Positions 2,489 through 11,853 of a DNA stretch of 40,926 bases are shown here, one piece after another. How positions within the stretch are numbered: position 1 is the first letter of the stretch; each line of letters begins with the position of its first letter. This DNA is from Gammaproteobacteria bacterium (lineage in GTDB: Bacteria; Pseudomonadota; Gammaproteobacteria; Thiohalomonadales; Thiohalomonadaceae). Both the position numbers and the translations under genes were made by a program. The stretch spans positions 1 to 40,926 of the forward strand of contig JAPHTQ010000020.1 of NCBI GenBank assembly GCA_026196275.1. The letters are read 5' to 3'. Below the pieces are notes generated by a model. That model made no database searches and was not told the DNA's origin. It worked only from the letters and a program-made list of their open reading frames with translations.

Positions 2489-3778
2489 TTACAGCGTTCC
2501 GTCCGAGCTGAAGCTGTAACCATCGCGTCCCCGCTGCTTGACGGTATACATGGCCTTATCGGCAGCCTGAAGCAAGCCGTCGGCATCCATTGCATCATGC
2601 GGATAGAATGCCAGGCCGATACTCATGGTCAAATGCCAGGTTGTATCGTCCAGGGTAAAGGGCGTTGCGAAACATTCGCGTAATTTTTTCAAGGTGACGC
2701 GTGCCTCATCCGGCGTACCGACATCGGGAAAGATACCGACGAACTCATCGCCGGCATACCGCGCCACCGTATCGCTTTTCCTGATGGCGCGACGGAAGCG
2801 GTTGGCCACCTCCACGAGCAACTGGTCGCCGGCGGCATGGCCGTAGGTATCGTTCACCTGTTTGAAATTATCCAGGTCAATCAGGGCAACGGCGAAAGCT
2901 CCACCCCGGCGCTGTGCAAAACTGATCGCCTGGTTTAACCGATCCAGAAAAAGACCACGATTGGGCAGGCCTGTGAGGTGATCGTGATGTGCTATCTCCC
3001 AAAGCTGCGCCGTGCGCTCGGTCACCTCCTTTTCCAGGCCAACACTCAAGGCACGCAATTCGTCCTCGGCCCGGCGACGGGTTTCTATTTGGGCAACCAG
3101 CCGGCGCCGATCCCGTTGGCTGCGCGATACGACCAGCGTTGCCGTCACTACGACGAGTGCCAGCGCCACAATGCTGAGACCGATAACCGTATTGAGAGCC
3201 CGGCCATAAGCCTGTCGTGCATGTGAAACAATCTCCTCTCCGCGCCGTTCGTAGATGTGATGCAACGCATCGGCGGCATGGATGACATTCTCCTGCGCAG
3301 GCACCGCCCGATCCAGCATGTGGCGTCGACCTTGTTTCATTAGCCCTTCTTGATAAAAGGCGATGGAATCCTCAACAACAGCTGTGGCGCGGACAGTTTC
3401 CCGGTGAAAATCCGCAAGGGCCTCACGTTCTGCCGATTCATCGGCGACGGCTTCCAGCTCAGCGCGCAGGACAATAAAGCGATTGCCCAAAGACAAAAAC
3501 TCCTGAAACAGCTCATCCTGCATAAACGGATCATTTTCAAGATATATCCAATTCAACCGCACCATGCGCTCACGGACGATGGTATGCATATCATGCACCC
3601 GATCAATGCGCCGGATATGGCTATCGACCACCTCCTCCAGATGATCGTGCATCAGGTTGAGATAGAACAGGCTCACCCCTGTACCCGCCAGTGTAAGAAG
3701 AAACAGAAAACCGAACCCGGCAATCAACAGGCGCGGTTGCGCCAACCGAGCGAAACCTTGCTCTGTATCATTCATCAA
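2489..3778 (-). CDS. Membrane-anchored diguanylate cyclase (4-helix-type sensor + GGDEF)
   Basis: 429-aa predicted c-di-GMP synthase. Order: membrane segment (about 15-37), an alpha-helical periplasmic region rich in His/Glu/Arg (about 38-190) resembling four-helix-bundle sensors, second membrane segment (about 195-215), a signalling coiled coil (about 218-262), then the GGDEF domain. The active-site motif is AGDEF rather than GGDEF, a substitution usually compatible with activity. An inhibitory RxxD site (RKSD) sits five residues upstream. Its ATG overlaps the stop of the upstream cyclase (ATGA, 3775-3778), so the two are translationally coupled. Catalytic output is inferred; the input signal is unknown. 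Confidence 0.92.
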   Translation of the reverse strand: MMNDTEQGFARLAQPRLLIAGFGFLFLLTLAGTGVSLFYLNLMHDHLEEVVDSHIRRIDRVHDMHTIVRERMVRLNWIYLENDPFMQDELFQEFLSLGNRFIVLRAELEAVADESAEREALADFHRETVRATAVVEDSIAFYQEGLMKQGRRHMLDRAVPAQENVIHAADALHHIYERRGEEIVSHARQAYGRALNTVIGLSIVALALVVVTATLVVSRSQRDRRRLVAQIETRRRAEDELRALSVGLEKEVTERTAQLWEIAHHDHLTGLPNRGLFLDRLNQAISFAQRRGGAFAVALIDLDNFKQVNDTYGHAAGDQLLVEVANRFRRAIRKSDTVARYAGDEFVGIFPDVGTPDEARVTLKKLRECFATPFTLDDTTWHLTMSIGLAFYPHDAMDADGLLQAADKAMYTVKQRGRDGYSFSSDGTL

Positions 3779-5010
3779 ACCAGCTCACTCTTTTCCACCC
3801 CAGACCGGGCGAATCTAAAGCAGTTGCTCCCCGCCTGTTTAGCTTGATACATGGCGTTGTCACTCAAATCTATCAGGCTTTCCATATCTGTGGCGTGAAA
3901 CGGGTAGAGGGCAATACCCAGGCTAATACTTACATTGAGACAGCGATCGCGATAGCAAATCGGTTCACTGATTACGGCAATAATTTTGCTCGCAATCCCG
4001 GATGCAACCTCTTCACTTTCGACTCGCCTTAACAGGGCGGTAAATTCATCACCCCCCATCCTGAATACCTGATCGGATTCCCGTATATTGGTACGCAAGC
4101 GGTTGGCGACTTCGTGCAGGACATGGTCACCGACAGCATGGCCATATTGGTCATTTATTGCCTTGAAACCATCGAGGTCCATATAGAACAACGCGAATCC
4201 ACCACCCTCACGCCGTTCCTGGGCAATTTCCCGTCTCAGTGAGTCATCAAAACTGTTGCGGTTGGGCAACCGGGTTAGACTATCCAGATAAGCCAGTCGA
4301 TGAATGGTCCCGTTGGCATTGACCAGTTCCGCATATTGCTGGCGGATAATCCTCTCTCCGCGTCGCATGAGCAAAAAAAGACCGGCGGAAATCAGCAGAA
4401 AACACGCCAGTGCCACTGCAAGTATCAAGTACCGGTTCTTGTCAATCCGCCGAACCATGCCGGTGACATCGGAATAGAGTTCGAATACGCCGACAACCTG
4501 CCTGGTCTCAGGATGATAGAAGGGAATGTAGGTCGATAGCAGACTGCGATCGGAGACGGTCTGCTCAAAGCTGTGGAACTGATTACGATGGTTCAGGAAA
4601 CTTAGTGGTTCGCCGCGCATTGCAGACTGAAACCCCGGATTGTCCGTCTTTTCCTGACCAATCTGGCTATGTTGGGTTGAATAGATGACAAAACCCTGGC
4701 TGTTGTAGATTTTGACCTTGAGGATCCCGTTACCATCCAGAAGCTCTGCCATAATCTCATCCAGTGGCCCAACCTCCGGCGCTTGCTGCATTTCGGTCCG
4801 TGAGCGGGCATGCCCCCGTGTAATAAATTCGCCCGCTTCCTCCCAGACAAGTTTGCCCAGCACCTGGGTCATATATGCATTGGCACGCGTTTCCTGATTG
4901 AGCAACAACTGCTTGGTGAAATACGCATACCAGACAACCGACAAAACCAGCACGAGCAGCACTGCAGACAAACTTGACAACAAAAAATAACGTTTAATAC
5001 GAAACTGCAT
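3775..5010 (-). CDS. Membrane-anchored diguanylate cyclase (periplasmic sensor + GGDEF)
   Basis: 411-aa predicted c-di-GMP synthase. N-terminal membrane segment (about 9-30), a periplasmic domain of about 150 residues with Cache-like features (KVKIYNSQGFVIYST, then a conserved FELYSDVT near its end), a second membrane segment (about 192-215) and a C-terminal GGDEF domain with intact MGGDEF. The inhibitory site RESD lies five residues upstream. It is first of two overlapping cyclase genes and lies 76 nt downstream of the MerR-family gene on the same strand, so all three may share a transcript. The ligand sensed outside the membrane is unknown. Confidence 0.92.
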   Translation of the reverse strand: MQFRIKRYFLLSSLSAVLLVLVLSVVWYAYFTKQLLLNQETRANAYMTQVLGKLVWEEAGEFITRGHARSRTEMQQAPEVGPLDEIMAELLDGNGILKVKIYNSQGFVIYSTQHSQIGQEKTDNPGFQSAMRGEPLSFLNHRNQFHSFEQTVSDRSLLSTYIPFYHPETRQVVGVFELYSDVTGMVRRIDKNRYLILAVALACFLLISAGLFLLMRRGERIIRQQYAELVNANGTIHRLAYLDSLTRLPNRNSFDDSLRREIAQERREGGGFALFYMDLDGFKAINDQYGHAVGDHVLHEVANRLRTNIRESDQVFRMGGDEFTALLRRVESEEVASGIASKIIAVISEPICYRDRCLNVSISLGIALYPFHATDMESLIDLSDNAMYQAKQAGSNCFRFARSGVEKSELV

Positions 5011-5086
5011 AACCGGCTCTCTCGCAAATCACAGATCCCTCAACGCCAATACAATCACCGATTTCGTTGCGAGGAAATTAGTTGTA

Positions 5087-5521
5087 TTAGTTAGTGTCAT
5101 TGTCCAAACTTTTTTTGAATCGCTTATAAAGCGGGCAATTATCATGACAATACGAGGGGCACTCCTTCAATATGGTTTTCAGAGCCCCTTTCCGGTTATT
5201 GAGCGTTCGAATCTGCGTTGTCACTGCATCCAACTTGTCCTGGGCAAGCTTCCGAACCGCATCGAAGTCCTCCGCCTCGACACTCCTCATCAATCGTGCA
5301 ATCTCACCAAGCGTAAAACCCAGGTCCTTTGTGTATTTAATGAGCAGTAGTTGCTCCAGATCCCGCTCACTATAAGATCTGAATCGCCCTGTAGAGGGCT
5401 TCCTGGGCTCTCGCAGGAGCCCGCGCCGCTGGTAGTACCGCACCGTTGCAACACCAACCCCGGCGGCTCTGGCCAGCCGCCCAATCGTAAGCATCCCTCT
5501 TTTATTGTTATTGCTGCCCAT
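5087..5521 (-). CDS. MerR-family transcriptional regulator
   Basis: 144-aa MerR-type activator: winged HTH at residues about 11-50 (LTIGRLARAAGV, then VRYYQRRGLL), the usual FRSYSERDLEQL segment, a long dimerisation helix (about 85-118) and a C-terminal cysteine cluster C121-x3-C125-H-x2-C129-P-L. The tail recalls the metal loop of MerR/ZntR-type sensors, but the cysteine at the start of the dimerisation helix (MerR Cys82) is missing. Metal or thiol sensing is possible but not shown. A MerR-type promoter lies just upstream (5560-5591), implying autoregulation. Two cyclase genes follow on the same strand. Confidence 0.9.
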   Translation of the reverse strand: MGSNNNKRGMLTIGRLARAAGVGVATVRYYQRRGLLREPRKPSTGRFRSYSERDLEQLLLIKYTKDLGFTLGEIARLMRSVEAEDFDAVRKLAQDKLDAVTTQIRTLNNRKGALKTILKECPSYCHDNCPLYKRFKKSLDNDTN

Positions 5522-5559
5522 TGCTCACACCGTTGCCGACCATATGCCCATCCTTTTGG

Positions 5560-5591
5560 AGTATAAACGCTGCACTATGGTGCAGAGTCAA
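5560..5591 (-). promoter_or_regulatory. MerR-type promoter with 20-bp spacer and dyad operator
   Basis: On the minus strand, a -35 TTGACT (5586-5591) and a -10 TATACT (5560-5565) are separated by 20 bp instead of 17. The spacer contains a perfect dyad CTGCAC-CATA-GTGCAG (5570-5585). An overlong spacer with a central dyad is the signature of promoters that MerR-family proteins untwist. It points at the MerR-family gene about 40 nt downstream. Confidence 0.72.
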
Positions 5592-5669: not shown

Positions 5670-5846
5670 ATGGCGGATGGATTCAGCGTAAAAGGAGCTA
5701 AGGATTCCTTAGTATCACCGGGGCAACTTACTAAGAATCTCTTTTTCTATTGTGAGGATGAGCAGCTTGCCCGGTTGATACGTGGCTATGGGAAGTTGTC
5801 CCCCGGAGAGAAAAACCGGCTAATTGAGGAGCTCGAACCGAAATAG
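5670..5846 (+). CDS. Small hypothetical protein (58 aa)
   Basis: ATG at 5670 to TAG at 5844-5846 gives 58 residues beginning MADGFSVKGAKDS and ending LSPGEKNRLIEELEPK. The C-terminal half (FYCEDEQLARLIRGYGKL then the charged helix) looks like real protein: amphipathic, no odd codons. No family is recognised. The ribosome site is poor (GACGGG region), and an in-frame stop at 5655-5657 rules out a longer form. It sits alone between the MerR-type promoter and the antiporter. It could also be the tail of a lost larger gene. Confidence 0.4.
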   Translation: MADGFSVKGAKDSLVSPGQLTKNLFFYCEDEQLARLIRGYGKLSPGEKNRLIEELEPK

Positions 5847-5898: not shown

Positions 5899-7635
5899 CT
5901 AGCGCCGTACCGCCGCCAGTTCCTGCTCGCGCTGGGCATCGATGCGCCGGTGTGAGACCTCCTCCGGGGTGCCTACCAGCTGCAGGATGCGACCGGATAG
6001 CTGCAGGCTGGCCTCGATTGTCTCCATGATGACCTCCGCTGCGCCACAATCCAGCAGACGGCTGGCATGTTCCGCATCACGGGCGCGGGCGACGATCGCC
6101 AAGTGCGGCCACTCGGCATGCACCACCTTGACCACATGCTCGGCCGCTGAGGCGTTATCCATCGTCACCACCAGGGCGCTGGCTTTGTCCAGATGGGCGC
6201 GGCGCAGCATCTCCAGGCGCGAGGCATCACCGTAATAGACCGGCATGCCCTGCTCACGTACTGCAGCCACGCTGTTTGGGTCGGTGTCGATCGCTACATA
6301 GGGAATCGCATCGGCATCCAGCGTGCGCCCCAGAATGCGACCCACGCGGCCAAAACCGGCCACCACCACGTGGCCCTCCATACCGCCGATTTGTTCGATG
6401 TTTCCCTCATGGGAAGCTGTTGTGCTGCTCGGCTCCAGCCGTTTGATCAGATGGCTGGAGGCACTGGCGACCAGCGGGGTAATCACCATCGAGATCCCCG
6501 TCACGATCAACATAAATTGGCCGACCTCACCCGGGATCAGGCCGAGCGTCATCGCCAGACCCACCACGACAAAGGCAAACTCCCCTCCCTGCCCCAGCAG
6601 CAGGCCGGTCTCCAGTGAGGTGTGGCGGGGCAGGCCAAACACCAGGCAGAGGCTGGCGGTGATCGCCGTCTTCAGTGTGAACAGACCAACGACCGAGGCG
6701 ATGATCCAGAACGTCTGCTCGCCCACCACCCGGTAATCGATCCCCATCCCCACCGACATGAAAAAGAGTCCGAGTAACAAGCCCTTGAACGGCTCAATGT
6801 CCACCTCGATCTCATGGCGAAATTCGGTCTCGGCCAGCAGCAAACCCGCCAGGAAGGCCCCCAGCGCCATCGACAGCCCGGCCATGCCGGTGACCGCCGA
6901 GGCGCCGATCACCATCAGCAAGGTCGCCGCCATGAACATCTCGACACTACGAGTACGGGCCACCATGTGAAACAGTGGTCGGATCACCAGTCTGCCCAGT
7001 ACATAGATGCCTACAATGACCAGCACGGCCTTACCGAGCGATAACAAAAGGGCCATGCCGACGCCATCTTGTGCCTTGCTGCCCAGCACCCCGACCATGA
7101 ACAGGATGGGCACCACCGCCAGGTCCTGCATCAACAGGATGGAGAAGCTGGAACGGCCCATTGGCGAGGCCAGCTGACGACGCTCGATCAACAGCTGCAT
7201 AACAATGGCCGTTGATGAGAGCGCCAGACAGGAACCCAATACGATCGATGCCGCCGGAGTGTTACCAAAGCCCCAGGCAATCGCGCCGATAATCGTGCCG
7301 GTAATGAGGATCTGAAGACTACCCAAACCGAATACCCAACGACGCATCGCCCACAATCGATCCAGGGAGAGATCCAGACCGATCATGAACAGCAGGAAGA
7401 TCACCCCCAACTCGGCCAGTGCCGACACCCCTTTGAGGTCGCTGATCACCGCATAGGAGAGCCAGCCGATATCTTCAACAAACATCCCCAGCCCAAACGG
7501 GCCGATAATCCCGCCGATGATCAGGTAACCCAGCACCGGGCTGACGCGCAAGCGATGCAGAATCGGCACGATAATGCCGGAGGCGATCAGAAACAGTACG
7601 ATCTCGCGCAGGTAAGGGATGCCATGCTCTTCCAA
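5899..7635 (-). CDS. CPA2-family cation:proton antiporter with RCK/TrkA-N domain (KefB/KefC/YbaL-like)
   Basis: 578-aa inner-membrane antiporter expected to exchange K+ or Na+ for H+. Residues about 1-390 form some 12 hydrophobic helices of the Na+/H+ exchanger fold, including LLGQGGEFAFVVVGLA, typical of Kef/YbaL proteins. Residues about 415-530 are a cytosolic RCK N-domain with the nucleotide-binding GFGRVG motif and an acidic IDTD about 20 residues on. Start is TTG at 7635, with GGAG 7 nt upstream. There is no KefF/KefG-like partner nearby, so glutathione gating is not supported. The C-terminus lacks an obvious second RCK_C domain. Confidence 0.92.
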   Translation of the reverse strand: MEEHGIPYLREIVLFLIASGIIVPILHRLRVSPVLGYLIIGGIIGPFGLGMFVEDIGWLSYAVISDLKGVSALAELGVIFLLFMIGLDLSLDRLWAMRRWVFGLGSLQILITGTIIGAIAWGFGNTPAASIVLGSCLALSSTAIVMQLLIERRQLASPMGRSSFSILLMQDLAVVPILFMVGVLGSKAQDGVGMALLLSLGKAVLVIVGIYVLGRLVIRPLFHMVARTRSVEMFMAATLLMVIGASAVTGMAGLSMALGAFLAGLLLAETEFRHEIEVDIEPFKGLLLGLFFMSVGMGIDYRVVGEQTFWIIASVVGLFTLKTAITASLCLVFGLPRHTSLETGLLLGQGGEFAFVVVGLAMTLGLIPGEVGQFMLIVTGISMVITPLVASASSHLIKRLEPSSTTASHEGNIEQIGGMEGHVVVAGFGRVGRILGRTLDADAIPYVAIDTDPNSVAAVREQGMPVYYGDASRLEMLRRAHLDKASALVVTMDNASAAEHVVKVVHAEWPHLAIVARARDAEHASRLLDCGAAEVIMETIEASLQLSGRILQLVGTPEEVSHRRIDAQREQELAAVRR

Positions 7636-10463: not shown

Positions 10464-10660
10464 AAGGGTCGTAATTTATCGCATCCGTTGCCAAGTTTCA
10501 CGTTGCGTCAGCCAAATCGGGAACGGGTGCGTTCCGGCGCTCTCCAATAGCCTCGACAAGCCGGACGAGTGCCGGCCGGTGAACGTATACCGGTGAGTAG
10601 CGCAAAACAGCAACCTGAACAGTTTAGGCCGGCACGGCTCGCGCCGTGCCCGATCCCGGG
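10464..10660. other. Intergenic with one strong hairpin
   Basis: Upstream of arsR. It holds a perfect hairpin, GGCACGGC (10631-10638) and GCCGTGCC (10643-10650), with a TCGC loop and no T-run, so it is not a standard terminator. It lies 11 bp before the arsR -35 box. No gene is supported here. Confidence 0.45.
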
Positions 10661-10708
10661 TTGCCAATGGGCCGCTTTACAACTATAATTCGAAACATGT
10701 CGAATTAT
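10661..10708 (+). promoter_or_regulatory. arsR promoter and overlapping ArsR-type operator
   Basis: A -35 TTGCCA (10661-10666), a 17-bp spacer and a perfect -10 TATAAT (10684-10689). A perfect 8-bp inverted repeat, ATAATTCG (10685-10692) and CGAATTAT (10701-10708) around AAACATGT, covers the -10, the predicted start of transcription and the ATG at 10697. Transcription would begin at or within a base or two of the ATG, suggesting a leaderless mRNA. A repressor bound here would block RNA polymerase, which suits ArsR autorepression relieved by arsenite. Confidence 0.75.
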
Positions 10709-11032
10709 CGAACTATCAGTGACTCTTTGCCGGCCATGTTCAAGGCCCTGAGCAATCCGCACCGCCTGGCGCTGTTCCGGCGCATGCTGGCCTGTTGCAG
10801 CCCGGGTACCGTCTGTCCGGTGCAGGGCGAACTGAGCGTAAGTGAATTGGCTGAGGGGTTGCGTATCGCCCCCTCCACCCTCTCGCACCACCTCAAGGAA
10901 CTGCACCAGTGCGGCCTCATTGGCATGGAGCGGCGTGGCAAACGGGTCTTCTGCCGGATCGAACCCGATGCGGTCACCGCGCTGGCACAACTCTTTTCTC
11001 CCCCTGAACACCAACCGGAGTGTAAACCGTGA
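10697..11032 (+). CDS. arsR: ArsR-family arsenic-responsive repressor
   Basis: 111-aa winged-helix repressor of the ArsR/SmtB family. HTH at about 47-75 (VSELAEGLRIAPSTLSHHLKEL), followed by the wing (MERRGKRVFCRIE). Cys33, Cys34 and Cys40 (CC-x5-C) near the N-terminus could form a three-thiol arsenite site; other ArsR proteins place a similar trio near the C-terminus. It overlaps arsM by 4 nt (GTGA, 11029-11032). The ATG at 10697 has no ribosome site and fits leaderless translation; an in-frame ATG at 10736 also lacks one. That the ligand is As(III) is inferred from arsM. Confidence 0.92.
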   Translation: MSNYRTISDSLPAMFKALSNPHRLALFRRMLACCSPGTVCPVQGELSVSELAEGLRIAPSTLSHHLKELHQCGLIGMERRGKRVFCRIEPDAVTALAQLFSPPEHQPECKP

Positions 11033-11853
11033 GTGATACAGACAAGCATACCCACCATGACAGCCACCGCAATCAGGTACGTGATGCCTACTCCCAGGTG
11101 GCCGAGGCGAACAACGCCGGCAGCTGCTGCGGCGAGGTATCCAGTTGCTGCGGCACCGGCGACGATGCGGCCATCAACACCCTGATCTCCACCCGCCTCG
11201 GCTACAGCGAGCAGGATCTCCTTCAGGTGCCGGGCGGTGCCGACATGGGCCTCGGCTGCGGCAATCCGCAGGCGATCGCCGCGCTGCAGCCGGGAGAGGT
11301 GGTGGTGGACCTGGGCGCCGGCGGCGGTTTCGACTGCTTCCTCGCCGCCGCCCAGGTGGGGGAGAGAGGCCGGGTGATCGGCGTCGACATGACCCCGGCG
11401 ATGCTCTCCAAGGCGCGGGCCAACGCCGGGAAGGGAAACTATCATAATGTGGAATTCCGCCTCGGCGAGATCGAGTATCTGCCGCTGGCCGACGCCAGCG
11501 CCGATGTGATCATCTCCAACTGTGTGATCAACCTCTCGCCGGACAAGCCGCAGGTCTTCCGCGAGGCGTTCCGCGTGCTCAAGCCGGGCGGTCGGCTGGC
11601 GATCAGTGATGTGGTCGCCACCGTAGAGCTGCCGGAGGCGATGCGTACCGACGCCGCGCTCATCGCAGGCTGCATGGGCAACGCCTCGCTGATCGAGGAT
11701 CTCGAACGGATGATCGCCGAGGCGGGCTTCACCGACGTGCGTATCGCCCCCAAGGACGACTCCCGCGAATTCATCCGCGACTGGGCGCCGGGGCACGGGG
11801 TGGAGGAGTACGTCGTCTCCGCCACCATCGAAGCGGTCAAACCGGCAGCGTGA
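11029..11853 (+). CDS. arsM: Arsenite S-adenosylmethionine methyltransferase
   Basis: 274-aa cytosolic enzyme that methylates As(III) using S-adenosylmethionine. The SAM-binding motif [12 protein letters not shown] starts at about residue 92. Substrate cysteines are present: Cys77 in GLGCGNP, Cys165 in SNCVINLS and Cys215 in AGCMGNAS; the 50-residue gap between the last two matches characterised ArsM enzymes. The N-terminus adds two Cys pairs (Cys33-34 and Cys40-41) and a His-rich leader. Start is GTG overlapping the arsR stop, with CGGAG 8 nt upstream. Products would be mono- to trimethylated arsenicals, the last volatile. Confidence 0.96.

Follow-up and report, generated by a model that had tools for sequence, protein, structure and literature searches.

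The locus and its genes

The window analyzed here comprises positions 1–40,926 of contig JAPHTQ010000020.1 of a gammaproteobacterium from the Thiohalomonadaceae. It carries on its minus strand a gene for a MerR-family regulator (P0001), preceded by a long-spacer promoter and followed by two genes for diguanylate cyclases, synthases of cyclic diguanosine monophosphate (c-di-GMP) (Table 1). The initial annotation of this locus, made from the sequence alone, covered positions 3775–5591; this range includes the promoter, merR and the first cyclase gene, but omits the second one, which extends to 2489.

Table 1. Features of the merR–cyclase locus in window coordinates
Feature	Positions	Strand	Remarks
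Diguanylate cyclase 2, 429 aa	2489..3778	-	start TTG 3778 or ATG 3775; 4HB_MCP_1 sensor, GGDEF domain (AGDEF, RxxD)
Diguanylate cyclase 1, 411 aa	3775..5010	-	GGDEF domain, GGDEF signature and RxxD
merR–cyclase 1 gap, 76 bp	5011..5086	-	neither terminator-like nor sigma70-like sites on the minus strand
MerR-family regulator P0001, 144 aa	5087..5521	-	C-x3-C-x3-C tail; Phe86 at the place of the first metal cysteine
MerR-type promoter	5560..5591	-	-35 TTGACT 5591-5586; 20-bp spacer CTGCACCATAGTGCAGCGTT; -10 TATACT 5565-5560
Operator dyad CTGCAC-CATA-GTGCAG	5570..5585		inside the spacer, immediately 3' of -35; centre 8 bp from -35

The two overlapping cyclases proposed downstream of the regulator are borne out by the domain analysis: both proteins contain the GGDEF domain (PF00990) above the cut-off (163.3 and 161.2 bits), the genes are co-directional with merR, and the stop codon of cyclase 1 shares one base with the ATG of cyclase 2 (TGATG, 3777-3773), the overlap being four bases if translation starts at TTG. 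Both enzymes look catalytic, since in both translations RxxD stands five residues upstream of the (G/A)GDEF signature. For the N-terminal sensor region of cyclase 1, Pfam gave no match up to E 10, and Pfam scans did not find the CZB domain (PF13682) in either cyclase (P0002, P0003).

A terminator or a separate promoter between merR and cyclase 1 had been named in the initial annotation as evidence that would speak against its proposal. Scans of the minus strand in 5011-5086, including a looser one, reveal neither, the gap folds no better than shuffled sequences (z 0.52), and the single promoter-like match (5028-5055) is on the plus strand. The G+C content of merR (51%), cyclase 1 (51%) and cyclase 2 (56%) is below that of the window (62%), which suggests that the block 2489-5521 was acquired horizontally.

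Promoter and operator of merR

The MerR-type promoter with a 20-bp spacer and a CTGCAC/GTGCAG dyad, which was the starting point of the initial annotation, stands out in all counts. The merR promoter is the sole exact match to TTGAC-N21-TATANT in the window, and with at most one mismatch there are three matches, while 0.34 are expected. Of the perfect CTGCAC-N4-GTGCAG dyad the window has one copy, compared to 0.01 expected from shuffling, and there is no second copy in the 2.54-Mb genome. These window and genome counts, together with the conservation in relatives described below, rule out a chance match. The -10 box is 38 bp away from the merR start codon.

The position of the dyad within a 19–20-bp promoter spacer is a trait of the MerR family, and promoters of this kind are activated by MerR-family regulators, according to PMC8113463. 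Moreover, the distance of 8 bp between the operator centre and the -35 box matches the MerR group and not CueR, for which an excerpt of PMC5045206 gives 7 bp.

Nine near-matches to the dyad, each with one mismatch, are found elsewhere in the same genome. A wider regulon was considered and rejected, as inspection by eye of five of the nine contexts (all but L111, L112, L114 and L117) yielded no MerR-type promoter; the best near-match, L109, falls within a transporter-like reading frame. The operator pattern, searched across 398 genomes of the phylum, yielded the window site and one poor match with three mismatches.

The regulator scores below the cut-offs of the classical MerR-family groups

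P0001 scores above the Pfam cut-offs for MerR_1 (PF13411, 73.2 bits) and MerR-DNA-bind (PF09278, 37.9 bits), matches the MerR structure 5crl with 75.5 bits, and its gene is the only place in its genome with MerR domains at E <= 0.001. The C-x3-C-H-x2-C tail noticed initially is indeed present, as C121-PSY-C125-H126-DN-C129. The metal cysteines of the mercury regulator MerR are Cys82, Cys117 and Cys126, and in the alignment Phe86 of P0001 takes the place of Cys82. The absence of the first MerR cysteine, also noticed initially, is thus seen in the alignment, but it is peculiar to the window protein, as all its relatives keep Cys86.

Assignment of P0001 to the characterized groups failed in each case. 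The mercury MerR equivalog model (TIGR02051) gives 95.3 bits, with the cut-off at 150.85, and the first of the three cysteines is replaced by Phe86; the models of CueR, ZntR and CadR-PbrR give 71.9, 67.4 and 62.6 bits, with NCBIfam cut-offs of 147.4, 167.95 and 151.45, respectively. For SoxR the score is 45.9 bits (cut-off 116.9), and the C-x2-C-x-C-x5-C motif is absent, its place being taken by the C-x3-C-x3-C tail. The MlrA/BluR type is excluded by protein length (144 aa compared to 243 aa) and by the MlrA model (16.4 bits, cut-off 417).

A subfamily with the C-x3-C-x3-C tail

The first relative of P0001 was identified by a protein search of genome contigs in a representative of the Rhodocyclaceae (L031), with the tail C-P-H-G-C-P-D-A-C-P. 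In total, the subfamily with the C-x3-C-x3-C tail comprises 12 distinct MerR proteins from 12 genomes, one per genome, the window included. It is sparsely distributed: a subfamily protein is encoded in 3 of 297 genomes of the L031 family, in 7 of 399 genomes of its order (G763 being counted again), and in 4 of 22 and 4 of 67 genomes of two further families (overlapping with the other counts). In 369 genomes of the class and 264 genomes of the phylum no subfamily protein except the window one was found; in the class search about 30 best matches out of many were read and the lower ones were judged by score.

In the 264 phylum genomes and the two further families, subfamily members score 205–231 bits against a 10-row profile, while all other proteins score at most 141. 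The aligned members are 38–45% identical to the window protein. C121, C125 and C129 are invariant in all ten of them, the motif also being visible in L130 and L139; Cys86 is kept in nine of the ten as well as in L130 and L139, the window protein alone having Phe. In a quick tree of 104 rows, built without the tail columns, the 12 members form one clade with SH-aLRT (Shimodaira–Hasegawa-like approximate likelihood ratio test) support of 94, though the tree is based on only 109 columns and many of its forks are poorly resolved. The ten members that were scanned are below every NCBIfam cut-off shown (MerR, CueR, ZntR, CadR), the nearest model being the mercury one, TIGR02051 (95.3–123.2 bits, cut-off 150.85); hence, members were not assigned to classical mercury, copper, zinc or cadmium/lead regulators. 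The window protein has all the features by which the subfamily is defined here, that is, the tail motif, the place in the clade, the CTGCAC-N4-GTGCAG-type operator and a c-di-GMP neighbour.

Among plasmid records, 4485 matched, all with identity below 60%; the 20 matches listed look like common MerR proteins, and nine carry the annotation of a mercury regulator. None of these 20 is annotated as a neighbour of c-di-GMP genes, flanking genes not having been examined.

Gene neighbourhoods of subfamily members

A GGDEF or EAL domain is encoded within 1.5 kb of the merR gene at 11 of the 12 subfamily loci, and at 2 of 102 loci of other MerR proteins, where three control loci were fetched twice, some are near contig ends, and members were told apart by the tail motif itself. 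Neighbours were scanned with Pfam in G763, G869, G1329, G1357, G1120 and G1163 and for the divergent gene of G1381; the rest were assigned by our own GGDEF/EAL profile or by reading.

The arrangements are diverse. In G763 and G869, merR is followed by a CZB-GGDEF gene (Pfam), and in G1329, G1357, G1271 and G1471 by a GGDEF gene without a recognizable CZB domain (two of the four scanned with Pfam). In G1120, G1450 and G1381, the last one with a short chemoreceptor frame, merR precedes a NIT chemoreceptor gene and is accompanied by a divergent PAS-GGDEF-EAL gene, G1120 additionally carrying an EAL-CZB gene. In G1163 the order is merR, EAL-CZB, MCP-CZB, and in the window merR, GGDEF, GGDEF. At the loci L031 and L068 merR and the cyclase gene are 4 bp apart, and the cyclases of both (P0005 in L031) have the CZB-GGDEF layout. 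Zinc-binding CZB domains are found in partner proteins at four loci.

Conservation of the merR-GGDEF-GGDEF linkage, suggested in the initial annotation as a check, therefore holds in a broader form: the linkage with c-di-GMP genes is conserved, but the partners vary (GGDEF, CZB-GGDEF, EAL-CZB, PAS-GGDEF-EAL), and the exact order was not found outside the window. Relatives of cyclase 1 occur in three other genomes of 56, within longer open frames (660–705 aa), and the stretches around them contain no MerR match.

Several features of these loci deserve mention in their own right. At L094 (11010-11414) there is an orphan subfamily member whose operator is perfect but which lacks c-di-GMP genes within 1.5 kb; the convergent gene after it is, as we assume, metalloprotease-like. 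At L104 (6585-6893) the NIT chemoreceptor gene beside merR has shrunk to about 103 codons, both ends being kept, with an apparent internal deletion. In three genomes the gene beside the merR block (L031 7921-11616, L095 11479-15144, L105 8334-11996) is presumably metH-like, that is, encodes a cobalamin-dependent methionine synthase, hinting at an ancestral location in common.

Operators of subfamily members

A long-spacer promoter with a dyad resembling CTGCAC-CATR-GTGCAG is found upstream of merR in 11 of the 12 members, and in the twelfth one, L097, the contig ends inside the site, the dyad and the -10 box still being visible. The spacer is 20 bp long in eight of the 11 and 19 bp in three; all six dyad pairs are kept in six promoters, five pairs in three, and four pairs in two. 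The L031 promoter (TTGCGT-20-TAAACT) has a dyad nearly identical to the window one.

Moreover, the divergent PAS-GGDEF-EAL genes of G1120, G1381 and G1450 each have a separate promoter, TTGACT-20-TAAA(A/T)T, in which four of the six dyad pairs are kept. Because these genes bear their own long-spacer promoters, the c-di-GMP genes, besides merR, are predicted to be targets of the regulator, the divergent promoters being the strongest sign of this.

L031 also contains an 11-bp inverted repeat (5936-5965), formed by CTATGGTGCAG and CTGCACCATAG around TGTTTAAA at the -10 box, in addition to the spacer dyad; this is perhaps a second binding site.

Proposed regulation and alternative explanations

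From the promoter, the dyad, the gene order, the lack of a terminator or second promoter in the merR–cyclase 1 gap, the clade and the conservation of the operator and the neighbourhood, all of them sequence features, we infer the binding, activation, ligand and output as follows. It is fairly probable that this MerR subfamily makes expression of c-di-GMP enzymes respond to a thiophilic metal or to the redox state of thiols, and that the window contains a MerR operon controlling c-di-GMP synthesis. The initial annotation supposed that the regulator may sense something new; the relatives point elsewhere. The signal of the subfamily is likely a thiophilic metal, zinc in the first place, or oxidation of thiols, because the C121-x7-C129 spacing, by sequence comparison, is that of the metal loop of E. 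coli CueR, C125 and H126 are additional potential donors, Cys86 is mostly kept, and the partners contain CZB, described in parts of PMC8262984 and of the preprint PMC13370339 as the zinc/HOCl-sensing (HOCl, hypochlorous acid), zinc-binding module of DgcZ. With the first cysteine missing, a metal site in the window protein, if any, would have to consist of Cys121, Cys125, His126 and Cys129, and the protein may prefer another ligand than the relatives do.

MerR-family regulators keep the promoter poised or repressed without ligand and untwist the DNA for activation when the ligand is bound, and the proposed scheme follows this known action. A MerR dimer would occupy the dyad within the extended 20-bp spacer in front of its own gene, keeping the promoter nearly silent. 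Binding of a thiophilic metal ion (zinc being the leading candidate for the subfamily), or modification of thiols in the C-x3-C-x3-C tail, would cause the dimer to untwist the spacer, so that RNA polymerase could transcribe merR together with both cyclase genes, which lie in the same direction. The c-di-GMP level would then rise, favouring attachment.

Several observations weigh against this scheme. The window cyclases lack CZB, so that the hint at zinc comes from other loci, and the window protein lacks Cys86. The 11 linked loci represent about four independent arrangements, several of them from one taxonomic family, and not eleven events; G946, the sole exception, is an orphan: its merR has the operator of the other members, but no c-di-GMP gene lies within 1.5 kb. 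Finally, a protein built like a metal sensor could in fact be a redox or iron-sulphur sensor. In such a case the tail would be a redox-active centre, either an iron-sulphur cluster or oxidizable thiols, and the regulator a SoxR-like redox or HOCl sensor. We regard this as unlikely, even though the three invariant cysteines in the C-x3-C-x3-C spacing and the dispensable first cysteine would suit such a centre, and CZB partners report oxidants too (PMC8262984 and preprint PMC13370339, both in part), since the tail has the CueR metal-loop spacing, the first cysteine of MerR and ZntR is kept in most members, the score against the SoxR model is below the cut-off, and the SoxR cysteine motif is absent.

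It is quite improbable that the regulator acts only on itself or on distant efflux genes, the cyclases being chance neighbours with promoters of their own. The linkage in 11 of 12 members compared to 2 of 102 controls, the 4-bp gaps in L031 and L068 and the long-spacer promoters of the divergent PAS-GGDEF-EAL genes all argue against it, as do the lack of a second perfect operator in the genome and of a promoter or terminator on the minus strand of the merR–cyclase 1 gap; the 76-bp length of this gap and the orphan member G946 are the observations in its favour. Even less probable is signalling via protein contact, with a cyclase or phosphodiesterase binding the MerR protein as in the BluF-BluR and YdaM/YciR-MlrA systems of E. 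coli and with expression being secondary. These precedents (PMC3509220, in part) and the conserved genetic linkage agree with such a contact, but BluR and MlrA are 243-aa proteins with a different C-terminal domain, whereas the regulator considered here has 144 aa, is of the metal type, contains conserved cysteines and scores far below the MlrA cut-off; moreover, the partners are unrelated in kind (GGDEF, EAL, MCP), which speaks against one conserved contact.

Beyond regulation of c-di-GMP synthesis by a metal or thiol signal, we tentatively suggest, with somewhat less than even confidence, a distinct, undescribed subfamily dedicated to coupling thiophilic-metal or thiol-redox status to expression of c-di-GMP (and chemoreceptor) genes. 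In several members one signal might be read twice, the regulator setting the amount of the enzyme and CZB on the same enzyme setting its activity, while the window protein might represent a branch in which the first metal cysteine disappeared and the ligand changed, the operator and the output staying the same.

Relation to known systems

Mercury MerR shares with the window regulator the domains, the length, the operator centre at 8 bp from the -35 box and the 19–20-bp spacer. In contrast to it, the subfamily has an extra middle cysteine and no mer genes are seen nearby, and the window protein lacks the Cys82 equivalent. CueR, ZntR and CadR-PbrR likewise act at long-spacer promoters with dyads, and CueR has the same C-x7-C loop spacing; the subfamily differs from them in having signalling enzymes rather than efflux pumps as neighbours, and in the scores of its ten scanned members, all below cut-off. 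BluR/BluF and MlrA-YdaM-YciR of E. coli are examples of MerR-like regulators tied genetically or physically to EAL/GGDEF proteins (as described in a part of PMC3509220), but BluR and MlrA, unlike the window regulator, have no metal cysteines and receive protein-protein input.

That a metal-sensing MerR acts on c-di-GMP has precedent, since the metal-induced phosphodiesterase Mrp (Urf2), the nearest known case, is encoded in mer operons of the Tn501/Tn21 type; according to PMC6629876, cadmium induces it, and the same paper cites induction by mercury, zinc and lead. The description of the targets in the initial annotation as unusual is thus correct for classical regulons, but a mer operon can carry a metal-induced c-di-GMP phosphodiesterase (PMC6629876). 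The resemblance to the mer operon of Cupriavidus metallidurans consists in a metal-induced c-di-GMP enzyme gene (PMC6629876, in part). Still, Mrp, an EAL protein, comes from a late gene in an operon for mercury detoxification and decreases c-di-GMP, while the window enzymes are synthases; unlike in the mer operon, c-di-GMP genes are the sole evident targets here, and a detoxification gene is absent.

The zinc/HOCl-sensing cyclase DgcZ (YdeH) has the CZB-GGDEF layout of the L031 (P0005) and L068 cyclases, the window cyclases lacking CZB; E. coli dgcZ is under the control of CsrA and not of a MerR protein (PMC8262984, in part). In a review of c-di-GMP sensing DgcZ is the mechanistic case for metal ions, and the word MerR is absent from it (PMC8846402). 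A comparative study of metal regulators (PMC1526738) contains neither 'GGDEF' nor 'diguanylate'. A literature search, restricted to open-licence papers and hence weak as proof of absence, found no MerR subfamily dedicated to c-di-GMP genes. One-component regulation by the MerR family is already known; the new part is c-di-GMP enzymes as conserved neighbours.

The subfamily suggests that metal or thiol stress may influence whether cells swim or attach, by a path that has received little study. It offers a testable one-component system with a common operator and c-di-GMP neighbours, in which the 32-bp promoter can be transferred to a reporter strain. Moreover, it provides a clean case for studying shifts in metal selectivity, one member having dropped a canonical cysteine kept by the others.

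Other features of the window

Between merR and a kefB-like gene, divergently to merR, there is a protein-like 58-aa open frame, MADGFSVKGAKD...RLIEELEPK (5670-5846, plus strand). In positions 10646-11853 of the plus strand a gene for an ArsR-type regulator (Pfam) overlaps a methyltransferase-like gene, which we take to resemble ArsM; the two are probably an arsenic pair.

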